Notes under the pieces: generated by a model
What the model was told of the DNA's origin: nothing
The model's database searches: none
What the model saw: only the letters and a program-made list of their open reading frames with translations
Shown here: positions 56,271 through 61,186 of the stretch, piece by piece
Layout: each line of letters starts with the position of its first letter
Numbering within the stretch: the first letter of the stretch is position 1
From: Synechococcales cyanobacterium GL140_1_metabinner_5_sub
GTDB lineage: Bacteria > Cyanobacteriota > Cyanobacteriia > Cyanobacteriales > Chamaesiphonaceae
Assembly (NCBI GenBank): GCA_025359065.1
Contig: JANYHM010000041.1
Coordinates: 1-64,000, forward strand
Direction: 5' to 3'
Length of the DNA: 64,000 nucleotides
Program-made: the position numbers and the translations under genes

Positions 56271-56332
56271 CCATAGCTCAGCAGTTCGATCACATGGCAT
56301 CTGCGGCGATTTCTTTCGGAGCACGCGCAGCC

Positions 56333-57122
56333 CGATCGAATTATCACTAACTCAAGCTAAAATAATAGAAGCGTACCACCGGAGCATTTTAGACTTATGG
56401 TTCAGCAACTGAAAAAAAGCGAAATTATTTATCCAGATTGTGACGGCCAGCCAATGTCAGACAACACTCTCCAATTTAGCTGGATCGTCAAAATTAAAGA
56501 AAACTTAGAAATATTATTCGCCAAAAACCCAGATGTCTTTTTGGCCGGTGATTTACTCTGGTACCCGGTAGAAGGTAATAACAGTATTAGACGAGCACCA
56601 GATACGATGGTCGTATTTGGTAGACCAAAAGGATATAGGGGTTCGTATCAGCAGTGGTTAGAAGATAACATTTCACCTCAAGTGGTGTTTGAAATCTTAT
56701 CCCCAGGGAATCGTTTGGCCGAGATGGCCGCTAAGTTTGAGTTTTACGATCGATACGGTGCCGAAGAATATTACATTTATGATCCCGACCGAGTAGATTT
56801 CACTGGTTGGCTCAGGCAAGCAGGCAGGCTACAGGGCATCACTGATATTTCTGGATGGGTCAGCCCTCGCTTAGGGGTGAGATTTGAACTCCAGGAAGAG
56901 CTAGAAATTTATACGCCAGCAGGCGAATTGTTTCTGTCACCGTTAGAGATTGCCCAAAAAGCTGAAGCAGCTCAGCAAAAAGCTGTTCGCCAACGAGCCC
57001 GAGCAACAGTTGCCGAAGAACAGCAGAAGATTGAGCGCGATCGGGCTAATGCCGCTGAACAAAAATCTGCTGTGATGGCAGCTAAACTGCGGGAATTAGG
57101 GTTAGACCCAGATAAACTTTAA
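56333..57122 (+). repeat. Long direct repeat, copy 1 (leader plus Uma2 gene)
   Basis: Matches 60283-61094 almost base for base, including the 64-bp leader with AGCTAAAATAATAGAAGCG and the whole Uma2 gene. Differences are scattered single bases plus a 21-bp insertion in the coiled-coil part of copy 2. The copies are 3.2 kb apart and in the same orientation. Confidence 0.9.
56397..57122 (+). CDS. Uma2-family putative endonuclease with coiled-coil tail (copy 1)
   Basis: A 241-residue Uma2 protein, starting MVQQLKKSEIIYPDCDGQPM. PD-(D/E)XK residues: LWYPVEGNNSIRRAPDTMVV (Asp) and PQVVFEILSPGNRLAEMAAK (Glu), with FYDRYGAEEYYIYDPD. The C-terminal 50 residues are a charged coiled coil (AEAAQQKAVRQRARATVAEE) ending MAAKLRELGLDPDKL, a tail seen in one large Uma2 subfamily. 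Nearly identical to the copy at 60348. Confidence 0.9.
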   Translation: MVQQLKKSEIIYPDCDGQPMSDNTLQFSWIVKIKENLEILFAKNPDVFLAGDLLWYPVEGNNSIRRAPDTMVVFGRPKGYRGSYQQWLEDNISPQVVFEILSPGNRLAEMAAKFEFYDRYGAEEYYIYDPDRVDFTGWLRQAGRLQGITDISGWVSPRLGVRFELQEELEIYTPAGELFLSPLEIAQKAEAAQQKAVRQRARATVAEEQQKIERDRANAAEQKSAVMAAKLRELGLDPDKL

Positions 57123-57143
57123 ACATATCGCAGGTTTATCCTT

Positions 57144-57948: not shown

Positions 57949-59316
57949 TCATCGAGATAGTTGTAAATCTGTCTGGAGCGGTGTTAGTTTTGCAGTGAGC
58001 TTTGTCACATTATCTACCATGCGCCGAATTGGATATTCCACCCCACTGGGTAGTGGAGCAGATACTAAATCGTAGTTATCGAACAAGATCCCCAAAATCA
58101 GCTTCATCTCCATCTTGGCAAACTCCACGCCTATACAGCTATGTGCGCCACCACCAAAGCCGATCAGCGAGTATGGATATTTGGTATCTTCTTCCCGTGG
58201 CGGTGCGAATCTGTCAGGATCAAAGCTGTCGGGTTCAGTATAAATTTCTGGCAATCGATGGGTAAAAATTGCCGAAATCATCACATTCCAACCTGCTGGA
58301 ATGTGATAACCGTTGATCTCGATATCTTCTAACACCCCACGAATCATCACGCCCACTGGTGGATAAAGTCGTTCTCCTTCTTTTAAGACATTGGTCATTT
58401 GGTAGAGTTGGCGCAGATGAGACATTTCGATCTCGCCGGTAACTACTCCACTATATTCATCACGCAGTTTATCGCGCCATTCGGGGCGATTTCCTAATTC
58501 AAACAATAGCCAAGACATCAGTGTTGCTGTTGTTTCATGGGCGGCAAACAAAAAACCCAGGGCTTGATTGGCCACCTGCATTTCGGTAAATTTCCGTCCA
58601 TCCTCATCTACTGTGTGCAGAAATAATCCCAAGACATCTTGTGCATTGTCTAGATCGCCAAGCTTTTGTCGTTCTTGAATGACTTTAAGAATATATTCAA
58701 TAATCTGGCGGCGGGCAGTTTGTCCCTGGCCATGCGCCATAAATGGTACGTCCCATTTGATAACCGCCGAATTGGCCTTGGTCATCAAAGTAGTAAATAA
58801 ATCGCGCACTCGATCGATTTCCTCTATTTTTTCGCTGCCTAAAAAAATTCGCACGGCCACAGTCAAGGTCAACTTCCGTAATTCGGCATCAAGGTTAATT
58901 GTTTCCTGTTTCCCCCAATCTGCGACCGCTGATTCTACCAGAGACTTGATTATGTCAAAATAGGAGGTGATCGCCTGCTGATGAAAAATAGGTAAAATCA
59001 ACCGCCGACTGGTCCGATGCTCGGCTCCATCTTGGAGCAACACCATATCCTCACTCAAAATTGGCTTTAATGTTTTCCAACCCAAGCGCGACGAAAAATT
59101 GTCCGCACGATCTTTTAGCACTAAACGACTGGCCTCTGGATCGGCCAATATCACATAGTTCTCACCTAGAAAGCTCATTTTAAAGATTTTCCCATGCTGC
59201 CAATAGCGTTGCCAGTAGAATAGTTCTCGGTGCCGAAAAGCATCTATCAGGTTGCCGATGATCGGCAAGCCCAGGCTGCCAGGAATAGCATCAACAGACT
59301 TGAGTTTAGTGTTCAT
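57949..59316 (-). CDS. Cytochrome P450 (CYP120-like)
   Basis: A 455-residue heme monooxygenase. I start at ATG 59316 (MNTKLKSVDAIPGSLGLPII); the frame opens 10 codons earlier. Motifs: proline-rich PGSLGLPIIGN, I-helix FLFAAHETTATLMSWL, ExxR in LKEGERLYPP, PERF-type DSFDPDRFAPP and the heme loop FGGGAHSCIGVEFAKMEMK with the Cys ligand. This is close to cyanobacterial CYP120, which oxidises retinoids, but the substrate here is not provable. No redox partner gene is adjacent. Divergent from a TetR-type gene only 43 bp away, likely its regulator. Confidence 0.9.
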   Translation of the reverse strand: MNTKLKSVDAIPGSLGLPIIGNLIDAFRHRELFYWQRYWQHGKIFKMSFLGENYVILADPEASRLVLKDRADNFSSRLGWKTLKPILSEDMVLLQDGAEHRTSRRLILPIFHQQAITSYFDIIKSLVESAVADWGKQETINLDAELRKLTLTVAVRIFLGSEKIEEIDRVRDLFTTLMTKANSAVIKWDVPFMAHGQGQTARRQIIEYILKVIQERQKLGDLDNAQDVLGLFLHTVDEDGRKFTEMQVANQALGFLFAAHETTATLMSWLLFELGNRPEWRDKLRDEYSGVVTGEIEMSHLRQLYQMTNVLKEGERLYPPVGVMIRGVLEDIEINGYHIPAGWNVMISAIFTHRLPEIYTEPDSFDPDRFAPPREEDTKYPYSLIGFGGGAHSCIGVEFAKMEMKLILGILFDNYDLVSAPLPSGVEYPIRRMVDNVTKLTAKLTPLQTDLQLSR

Positions 59317-59359
59317 TGGGCTGCTTACTCCAAGATCGTAAAACAAACACAGCTATTTT

Positions 59360-60310
59360 ATGAATAATTCCTCATCTTTGTCAAGCGATCTGCCCCCACG
59401 TCGTCAACCCAAGCAAAAACGCGGACAGCAGAGATTGGAAAAAATTTTGTTAGCTGCGGTGGAAGTGTTTACCGAGGTGGGTTATACAGCCGCAACTACT
59501 CAGCAAATCGCTGAGCGAGCCGAAACAGCGATCGGTTCTATCTATCAATTTTTTCCCGATAAGTTAGCGATTTTTCACGCGCTAGAGGCACAATATCTCC
59601 AACAGACCCAAGATTTCCATCAAGAATTTTTTCAGCAAGATATTTATCGCCCCTTAGAATCGGTGATTGGTGAGCTAATTGATCTTTTTGCTGGTTACAT
59701 CGAGCATCCACTCATTTACTGTATCTATCTTCAGTCAACACAGCCACCAGTAACGGGCTTATTTTTGTTGTTGACCAATGAGTTTGGTGCAAGTATGCAG
59801 CAACAATCGATCGTTCAACATGCCGCCGTCTATCGCCAACGCAATCCAGCTCTGAGTCAAAGCAAAAGCGAACTGCTTTCAGAAGTGGCGCATCGCATCT
59901 ATGAAAGCTTGGCTCTGGTTGCAGTTAGAAGTGGCTCTGGTCGTCGTCCAATAATTTATGAGGAGCTAAAAGCCGCACTTTACGGCTATCTGAATCCTCA
60001 CATTGGCGATCATTTGCTAAATCTGCACAACGATATGATGATATGCCCCCACTGCCAGGGCGATCGGGTGGCAAAAAACGGTCATCATAAAAACAAGCAA
60101 AGGTATATTTGCAGAGCTTGTAATCGGCAGTTTATCGATCGATATGCCTCCCGTGGATATCCCCCCAAGATTAAGCAAAAATGTCTCGATCTTCATCAAC
60201 AGGGAACGAGCTTTCGCGAAATCGAACGCCAAACCGGTGTTTCACACAACACGGTAATTAATTGGGTGAAAAGTATTGAGCGCGATCGAATTACCACAAA
60301 CCCAAGCTAA
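59360..60310 (+). CDS. TetR regulator fused to an IS1-type InsA zinc finger and HTH
   Basis: A 316-residue fusion. Residues 20-215 are a complete TetR-family repressor (DNA-binding LLAAVEVFTEVGYTAATTQQ, IAERAETAIGSIYQFFPDK, helical ligand domain). From Met226/227 the sequence switches to the start of an IS1-type InsA: MMICPHCQGDRVAKNGHHKN, then CRAC (zinc-finger cysteines 229, 232, 251, 254) and the HTH HQQGTSFREIERQTGVSHNT. The frame is uninterrupted. The last residues and the stop are encoded by the leader of the duplicated Uma2 repeat, which starts at about 60283. It is divergent from the P450, so I infer control of that gene; the extra DNA-binding domain could change its site or avidity. 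Confidence 0.85.
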   Translation: MNNSSSLSSDLPPRRQPKQKRGQQRLEKILLAAVEVFTEVGYTAATTQQIAERAETAIGSIYQFFPDKLAIFHALEAQYLQQTQDFHQEFFQQDIYRPLESVIGELIDLFAGYIEHPLIYCIYLQSTQPPVTGLFLLLTNEFGASMQQQSIVQHAAVYRQRNPALSQSKSELLSEVAHRIYESLALVAVRSGSGRRPIIYEELKAALYGYLNPHIGDHLLNLHNDMMICPHCQGDRVAKNGHHKNKQRYICRACNRQFIDRYASRGYPPKIKQKCLDLHQQGTSFREIERQTGVSHNTVINWVKSIERDRITTNPS

Positions 60311-61094
60311 AATAATAGAAGCGTACCACCGGAGCATTGTCTAAGTCATGGTTCAGCAACTGAAAAAAAGCGAAATTATTTATCCAGATTGTGATGGTCA
60401 GCCGATGTCAGACAACACTCTCCAATTTAGCTGGATCGTCAAAATCAAAGAAAACTTAGAAATATTATTCGCCAAAAACCCAGATGTCTTTTTGGCAGGT
60501 GATTTACTCTGGTATCCGGTAGAAGGCTATAACAATATTAAACGAGCACCAGATACAATGGTCGTATTCGGTAGACCAAAAGGATACAGGGGTTCGTATC
60601 AGCAGTGGTTAGAAGATAATATTGCACCTCAAGTGGTGTTTGAAATCCTATCGCCAGGGAATCGTTTGGCTGAGATGGCCGCTAAGTTTGAGTTTTATGA
60701 TCGATACGGTGCCGAAGAATATTATATTTATGACCCCGACCGAGTAGATTTCACTGGTTGGCTCCGGCAAGAAGGCAGGCTACAGGGCATCACTGATATT
60801 TCTGGATGGGTCAGCCCTCGCTTAGGGGTGAGGTTTGAACTCCAGGAAGAGCTAGAAATTTATACGCCAGCAGGCGAATTGTTTCTGTCACCGTTAGAGA
60901 TTGCCCAAAAAGCTGAAGCAGCTCAGCAAAAAGCTCAAGAAGCTCAGCAAGAAGCTGTTCGCCAACGAGCCCGAGCAACAGTTGCCGAAGAACAGCAAAA
61001 GATTGAGCGAGATCGGGCTAATGCCGCTGAACAAAGAGCTGCTGTGATGGCAGCTAAACTGCGGGAATTAGGATTAGACCCAGATACAATGTAA
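60283..61094 (+). repeat. Long direct repeat, copy 2
   Basis: Second copy of 56333-57122. Its first 28 bp encode the end of the TetR-InsA fusion, and it contains a 21-bp in-frame insertion relative to copy 1. Similarity stops at the Uma2 stop codon. Confidence 0.9.
60348..61094 (+). CDS. Uma2-family putative endonuclease with coiled-coil tail (copy 2)
   Basis: A 248-residue near-duplicate of the protein at 56397 (substitutions such as YNNIKRAPD for NNSIRRAPD). Catalytic residues are conserved. The coiled coil is longer by seven residues (QKAQEAQQEAVRQRAR), an extra heptad-like unit. It begins 37 bp after the TetR-InsA stop and could be transcribed with it. Both copies appear intact, so selection or recent duplication must explain their similarity. 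Confidence 0.9.
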   Translation: MVQQLKKSEIIYPDCDGQPMSDNTLQFSWIVKIKENLEILFAKNPDVFLAGDLLWYPVEGYNNIKRAPDTMVVFGRPKGYRGSYQQWLEDNIAPQVVFEILSPGNRLAEMAAKFEFYDRYGAEEYYIYDPDRVDFTGWLRQEGRLQGITDISGWVSPRLGVRFELQEELEIYTPAGELFLSPLEIAQKAEAAQQKAQEAQQEAVRQRARATVAEEQQKIERDRANAAEQRAAVMAAKLRELGLDPDTM

Positions 61095-61186
61095 AGCAAA
61101 CAATCGGGAGTATTGGTGGGTTTGCGGTATATACTGGCTATCGCTGGCTAAAGATTCTGTATTTTATCCCCCCATCCTCAAAAATC

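Follow-up and report, generated by a model that had tools for sequence, protein, structure and literature searches.

The gene described here raises a question about where bacterial repressors obtain their DNA-binding parts: can such a part be taken from a transposase, and what would it then do on a host regulator? In the window, by which we mean the whole 64,000-nucleotide stretch of cyanobacterial DNA that was analyzed, a single open frame at 59360-60310 (+ strand) runs from ATG to TAA and codes for a protein of 316 residues. In this protein a TetR repressor is joined to the zinc ribbon and helix-turn-helix (HTH) of InsA, a protein of the insertion sequence IS1. The fusion is confirmed by Pfam and NCBIfam domain assignments and by full-length in-frame homologues.

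Architecture of the fusion protein

The first two thirds of the protein have the hallmarks of a TetR/AcrR regulator. The N-terminal TetR_N HTH lies at residues 29-75 (59444-59584, +; PF00440, E 5.9e-15, 55.2 bits against a cut-off of 24) and is highly conserved in two alignments. The all-helical C-terminal ligand and dimerization domain is modelled by AlphaFold as helices between residues 99 and 215, and its best-scoring part is found at residues 141-211 (59780-59992, +; TetR_C_15, PF17918, 36.7 bits against a cut-off of 26.8).

The remaining third is of IS1 type. An InsA-type zinc ribbon with the four cysteines C229-x2-C232 and C251-x2-C254 occupies residues 229-258 (60044-60133, +) and is followed at InsA spacing by an InsA-type HTH at about residues 265-313 (60152-60298, +). 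Residues 229-313 correspond to positions 1-86 of the 199 in the IS1 transposase profile NF033558 (E 1.1e-24, 87.5 bits, below a 100-bit cut-off that is set for the whole transposase), and residues 229-260 match the IS1/IS1595 zinc domain NF050000 with 49.6 bits against a cut-off of 28. In Pfam, HTH_23 and HTH_Tnp_ISL3 match the tail HTH below gathering score, as does Zn_ribbon_InsA when run on the window tail alone (E 2.3e-4); the same ribbon model matches 14 of 18 tails of the long form, which has both ribbon and HTH, at E<=0.01 when these are searched alone. The catalytic InsB (DDE) half of an IS1 transposase is absent, with the profile match stopping at position 86 and the next gene coding for a Uma2 protein.

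The initial annotation had the TetR part followed directly by the MMICPHC segment of an InsA finger and HTH. The domains are as it described, but between the two parts lies a linker of some ten residues (216-226). Its description of two DNA-binding-type modules, one at each end of the protein, holds, as does its view that a transposon-derived domain has been taken up by a host regulator.

In the AlphaFold model the TetR fold is followed by a separate three-stranded zinc ribbon (strands 237-243, 246-251 and 257-259) and a three-helix HTH (helices 269-280, 285-292 and 296-313), with low-confidence joints at 223-225 and 261-265; the tail was also modelled alone. The best Foldseek matches of the model are TetR regulators, for example BkaR, TM1030 and DesT. 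With the tail model Foldseek returned no match at E 0.001, and the weak ones include several HTH proteins and paired domains. A PDB sequence search with the tail at E up to 10 yielded nothing but unrelated proteins, among them eukaryotic zinc-finger and paired-box ones.

Distribution, ancestry and selection

The window's own genome (3.92 Mb in 121 contigs) contains a second tailed TetR, on contig C5. This protein of 251 residues is 38% identical, consists of a TetR part and a zinc ribbon, and stops right after the ribbon, and the genome thus carries both a long InsA form and a short one restricted to the ribbon. The initial annotation had asked whether other strains possess the fusion, and they do: among 195 genomes searched overall it is present in full, at 57-61% identity, in 8 of the 11 from the window's family, and it occurs in Nostocales and other groups as well. 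The three family genomes without the full fusion are 77-89% complete. Among the best 80 loci of named genomes, long forms come from Dulcicalothrix, Calothrix, Brasilonema, Scytonema, Mastigocoleus and a Chroococcidiopsidaceae MAG and short forms from many other genomes, including a Gloeobacterales MAG; the closest named relatives of the window in this set are Chamaesiphon.

We read 117 TetRs in all, comprising 60 short forms (ribbon only), 25 long forms (ribbon and HTH), 10 proteins with a winged-HTH-like tail and 22 without a tail. Removal of seven near-identical rows before tree building left 110, divided 57, 21, 10 and 22, respectively; the four cysteines were also the criterion by which ribbon-bearing forms were sorted, and the tailed sample was gathered with tail-bearing queries, so these frequencies are not population estimates. 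The set leaves out the own-genome loci L003-L009 (of which L004 and L005 are weaker TetR matches), the cut locus L100, and L082 and L145, where no frame fitted the sorting motif; a further long form, L177, enters no count. Since many homologues are without the HTH, it is dispensable in the family. The winged-HTH-like C-terminal domain, recognizable by an SRRTLQR[ED]L motif, stands in place of the InsA tail in L024, L025, L066, L093-L095, L139-L141 and L143. It is unrelated to that tail, although the TetRs that carry it belong to the same clade, and Pfam names no domain in the copy from L066. One typical cyanobacterial TetR-ribbon locus (L061) lies on a contig filed under Candidatus Gracilibacteria, which is probably mis-binned.

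In a quickly built tree of the TetR core, with 197 columns for the 110 proteins, all 88 tailed proteins group with three tail-less ones in a single clade of 91 (SH-aLRT 99). Over this clade the long form is scattered, requiring at least six changes on the best tree, with its main groups in Chamaesiphon and Nostocales. Two Calothrix short forms are nested in the Nostocales group of long forms, which suggests that they have lost the HTH. On a tree of InsA domains a branch (support 94/93, which is not decisive) separates all 21 TetR-fused domains from 23 IS1 domains, hand-picked among the matches listed, five GntR domains and one sigma domain. The nearest relative of each short ribbon (57 of 57) is a long one in a pool of 21 long, 22 IS1, five GntR and one sigma domain, and that of each long ribbon (21 of 21) is a short one, again with IS1 in the pool. 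Recent loss of the HTH in short forms is rejected, as no HTH remnant was detected within up to 300 nt past the stop codon at 88 short, winged-HTH or tail-less loci (best E 1.3, against 0.91 for a control stretch further downstream); any such loss must consequently be old. These comparisons fit a single acquisition, early on, of InsA's entire DNA-binding part, with old losses of the HTH thereafter and a replacement of the InsA tail by the winged-HTH-like domain in two places, where in both cases the direction of change is our reading of the tree.

The tails are under purifying selection. The ratio dN/dS is 0-0.24 for the ribbon in all pairs in which it is defined (22 of 25) and 0.04-0.42 for the HTH in 12 of 12 long pairs, about equal to the 0.04-0.43 of the TetR part, with some pairs near saturation of synonymous sites. 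The few residues that short forms have beyond the ribbon, with one ratio of 1.24 over 10 codons, did not enter the HTH figures. The capture envisaged in the initial annotation was thus right in kind and too narrow in scope: the fusion is a conserved family, and its tail looks like an old, domesticated acquisition. We conclude that this is a conserved, selected TetR repressor variant with a domesticated IS1 DNA-binding tail. The open-license literature that we searched yielded no description of such TetR-InsA fusions, which is weak evidence of absence.

The InsA module is also found at the C-terminus of other proteins. Among the matches listed, six loci (L119-L123 and L169) code for GntR/FCD regulators with the full module and five (L170-L174) for GntR/FCD regulators with the ribbon only, the same long and short pattern as in TetR. 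A sigma-70-like protein with regions 2 and 4 (L124, genome G097) ends in the module, and the relatives of this protein that we examined from other genomes end differently. Two C5-cytosine methyltransferases of 413 and 414 residues, both from genome G286 (L175 and L176), end in an InsA zinc ribbon and HTH. On the InsA tree, which does not include L169-L176, the five GntR domains group by themselves (100/100) and the sigma domain lies apart from the TetR ones, so the GntR and sigma fusions look like separate captures. The carriers number at least these, counted among the matches listed, and more may exist. In a further protein of 229 residues (L185) InsA follows about 90 residues of unknown kind. 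A 309-residue frame with an InsA match in genome G168 proved to be a broken IS1 gene and no fusion.

We tentatively suggest, as a reading slightly more apt to be wrong than right, that the cyanobacterial InsA ribbon and HTH form a portable DNA-gripping module. Such a module would have been taken up independently by DNA-acting proteins of at least four unrelated kinds (TetR, GntR/FCD, sigma-70-like and cytosine-5 methyltransferase), two of which also have a ribbon-only form, and some of the long forms may still read IS1 ends. If so, the module would be a bacterial counterpart of transposase-derived transcription factors, and for any long forms that do still read IS1 ends, copies of IS1 would be mobile operators or decoys.

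Divergent oxygenase and conserved element

The gene divergent from the fusion codes for a cytochrome P450 (57949-59316, - strand; Pfam p450, E 7e-73), whose best PDB sequence match is P450 120 (entry 2ve3, E 1.4e-58). As initially annotated, the two genes are 43 bp apart, the P450 start codon being at 59316 (-) and that of the TetR at 59360 (+). Considering the 85 non-redundant tailed loci with an upstream open frame, the upstream neighbor is a divergent Rieske gene at 75 and a P450 at six, all six in the window's own family. The other four have a 61-residue Rieske match (L066), a 103-residue P450 remnant (L011) and, judged by eye, genes for an FAD monooxygenase (L051) and a radical-SAM protein (L115). 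These neighbor classes derive from single-linkage BLAST clusters, with Pfam run on one Rieske member. The divergent oxygenase is probably controlled by the tailed TetR. In L014 and L042 two genes, one of them PIN/VapC toxin-like by eye, lie between the TetR-InsA gene and the P450.

The P450/TetR block of the window is flanked by a duplication of a Uma2 gene and its upstream flank (56329-57123 and 60279-61095, 92% identical over 817 alignment columns). The second copy of the flank starts within the final ten codons of the fusion gene, taking in its stop codon, and about ten codons plus the stop (60279-60310, +) therefore consist of DNA common to both copies.

A 28-bp element with the consensus ATAYGANNNNNNNNTCRYRTTYGTCAAG is present in 86 of the 88 tailed loci, its window copy being at 59358-59385. 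Within it lies the predicted TetR operator, a TATGA-N8-TCATC palindrome at 59359-59376 (no strand assigned) that overlaps the TetR ATG. The palindromic site near the own gene that is typical of TetR/AcrR regulators is in this way present as a conserved sequence. The window copy scores 30.3 bits, and 440 shuffled stretches score at most 3.7 bits, with a matrix that started from a chosen seed and was fitted to the same loci that it scored. Five loci (L065, L069, L077, L080 and L086) scored low on a clipped scan stretch, and the element was found in them on rescanning. The two tailed loci without it are L033, at a contig edge, and L014, with its two intervening genes. In L046 a stop codon separates the element from the coding frame, and in some loci the element is upstream of the frame, so it is conserved as DNA and not as protein code. 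Across the window's own genome, zero-mismatch copies of TATGA-N8-TCATNTTTGTCAAG occur only at the two tailed TetR genes, with six more at 3 mismatches; a reversed-pattern control gave 0 matches. The initial annotation had proposed the 59316-59360 gap as the site to test, but the likely operator is the conserved element, which is mostly inside the start of the TetR gene.

The -35 box of a predicted P450 promoter (TTGACA-N18-TAAAAT, 59355-59384, -; 11 of 12 consensus bases) also falls in the element. The promoter scan found one site, and since shuffled sequences average 2.0, the scan alone is no evidence. The palindrome is located between the -35 and -10 boxes of this predicted oxygenase promoter and also covers the start codon of the TetR, as is common for repressors that regulate themselves as well; promoter function alone could conserve part of the element. 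Most tail-less relatives have a similar site with a 7-bp gap instead of the 8-bp one, and the site may thus predate the tail. In tail-less TetRs such as L097, L099, L102, L105 and L108-L111 it reads TAYGAACAnTGTTCATGTTTTGTCAA, with a 7-bp gap, and the neighboring genes are different.

A second operator-like site, TNYGA-N8-TCRYR, is found mostly 27-32 bp upstream of the first (for example in L034). With at most one mismatch it is present at 54 of the 56 short-form loci, 8 of the 20 long-form ones and 4 of the 10 with a winged-HTH tail, compared with 0 of 86 in a control region 120-142 bp upstream; the window does not have this site, its best candidate having 2 mismatches, the same as the best controls. 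A tie between tail form and operator number was considered and dropped: the tree offers only five independent pairs (sign test, median p 1), and we therefore make no claim on it.

Role of the tail and relation to known systems

We infer dimer binding, repression, ligand response and the job of the tail from what the comparison of loci establishes, namely architecture, conservation, selection, the conserved element and the neighboring gene. In the mechanism that we propose, a TetR dimer would bind the palindrome at 59359-59376, covering the TetR start codon and sitting between the P450 -35 and -10 boxes so as to block the P450 promoter, and a ligand in the TetR pocket would release it. The tail would be the domesticated InsA DNA-binding part of IS1, probably acquired once, early in the TetR clade, and kept by selection. 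Held on flexible linkers, it would most likely contact DNA adjoining or between operators and so strengthen or bridge binding, without choosing the operator. That the protein represses both its own gene and the divergent oxygenase gene, with the InsA tail as an accessory DNA-contacting module, is a reading in which we have reasonable confidence. For the tail taken separately we favor accessory DNA contact at roughly even chances, because the alternative tails share a DNA-binding-type fold and the other InsA carriers that we examined are DNA-acting. The tail seems not to set the operator, since ribbon, full and winged-HTH tails share one operator class and tail-less relatives have a similar site.

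The main rival, unlikely in our view but the strongest of the alternatives, is that the tail no longer reads DNA and tunes an oxygenase repressor by other means, either as a zinc-dependent element with a structural or a metal- or redox-sensing role or as a protein-protein interface. It would account for the 57 of 110 TetRs that have a four-cysteine ribbon, the cysteines being also the sorting criterion, without a tail HTH. It also agrees with our failure to see by eye any conserved DNA element specific to a tail type in the stretch from 110 bp upstream of the operator to 60 bp downstream. It sits less well with the 10 proteins in which the winged-HTH-like domain replaces the tail, where what is shared is a DNA-binding-type fold and not a metal, or with selection on the HTH in long forms.

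We give rather little credence to the idea that the tail still reads IS1 ends, in which case the regulator would also occupy copies of IS1, either repressing them or being titrated away by them. According to PMC12428005, the promoter of IS1 is repressed by InsA, a potent repressor in trans, whose zinc finger and HTH are both required for binding IS1 ends. The HTH stretch GVSHNTVINWVK is moreover identical in the window and in a 214-residue IS1 InsAB-type frame (L125). However, with a matrix built from seven cyanobacterial IS1 ends, on which true ends score 33-39 bits, nothing above 5.4 bits was found from -300 to +100 of the TetR start at the 21 long loci (mean 0.38, against 0.61 in shuffles), and the reading of an IS1 end at the own promoter is rejected for these loci. 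Weak matches of 11.5-16.6 bits in the same interval occur at 4 of 57 short loci (L098, L089, L090 and L112). The window's own genome offers few targets, with one broken and one fragmentary InsA-like match at E<=0.001 besides the two TetRs, and the ribbons themselves differ, having KQR or KQC in 78 of 78 TetR tails versus KQN in 18 of 22 IS1 ribbons. The cyanobacterial IS1 elements that we identified (L196-L212) are about 750-883 bp long; of eight delimited ends, seven start GGCGTTGC to within one base, and at the eighth the alignment stopped short.

It is improbable that the gene makes two products, the full TetR-InsA protein and a separate InsA-like peptide from methionine 226 or 227. A methionine does stand two residues before the first cysteine in 75 of 78 InsA-tailed TetRs, but Shine-Dalgarno-like sequences are not enriched at the first linker methionine (5 of 78, against 28 of 365 other internal methionines), and an internal start there was rejected on this ground. 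Many cyanobacterial genes have no Shine-Dalgarno site, which makes the test a weak one.

Hardest of all to credit is that the fusion is an error of assembly or sequencing, or that the TetR frame has recently, and neutrally, been read through into a remnant of IS1 lying downstream: the last codons do lie in duplicated Uma2-flank DNA, a sign of rearrangement at the gene's end, but full-length in-frame copies in other assemblies rule out the missing stop or frameshift that the initial annotation had allowed for, and these homologues together with the dN/dS of their tails refute read-through for the family.

The usual view is that bacterial regulators draw new DNA-binding parts from one another. 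In this case a transposon protein supplied the part, which is now a permanent component of a repressor family found widely in cyanobacteria, and its occurrence on further proteins that act on DNA points to a general path by which insertion sequences feed into bacterial gene regulation. The predicted operator and target are directly testable, and the natural variants, with full tail, ribbon only, another tail or none, provide ready-made comparisons.

The fusion resembles the TetR/AcrR repressors that are divergent from the gene they control in its TetR_N and TetR_C_15 domains, its divergent neighbor and a palindrome over promoter and start codon. It is unlike them in its additional C-terminal zinc ribbon and HTH, and we know of no described TetR with such a tail. 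With IS1 InsA and InsAB' it shares model positions 1-86, the cysteine spacing and the HTH, but it has no InsB catalytic half, stands behind a regulator and is apart from the 23 IS1 copies on the tree. The closest analogs in design are the host-transposase fusion transcription factors of eukaryotes, in which a host regulator has gained the DNA-binding domain of a transposon. The fusion described here likewise combines a host regulator with a transposon DNA-binding domain, and differs from the eukaryotic ones in being bacterial, in deriving from IS1 and in that its module occurs with four host protein families.
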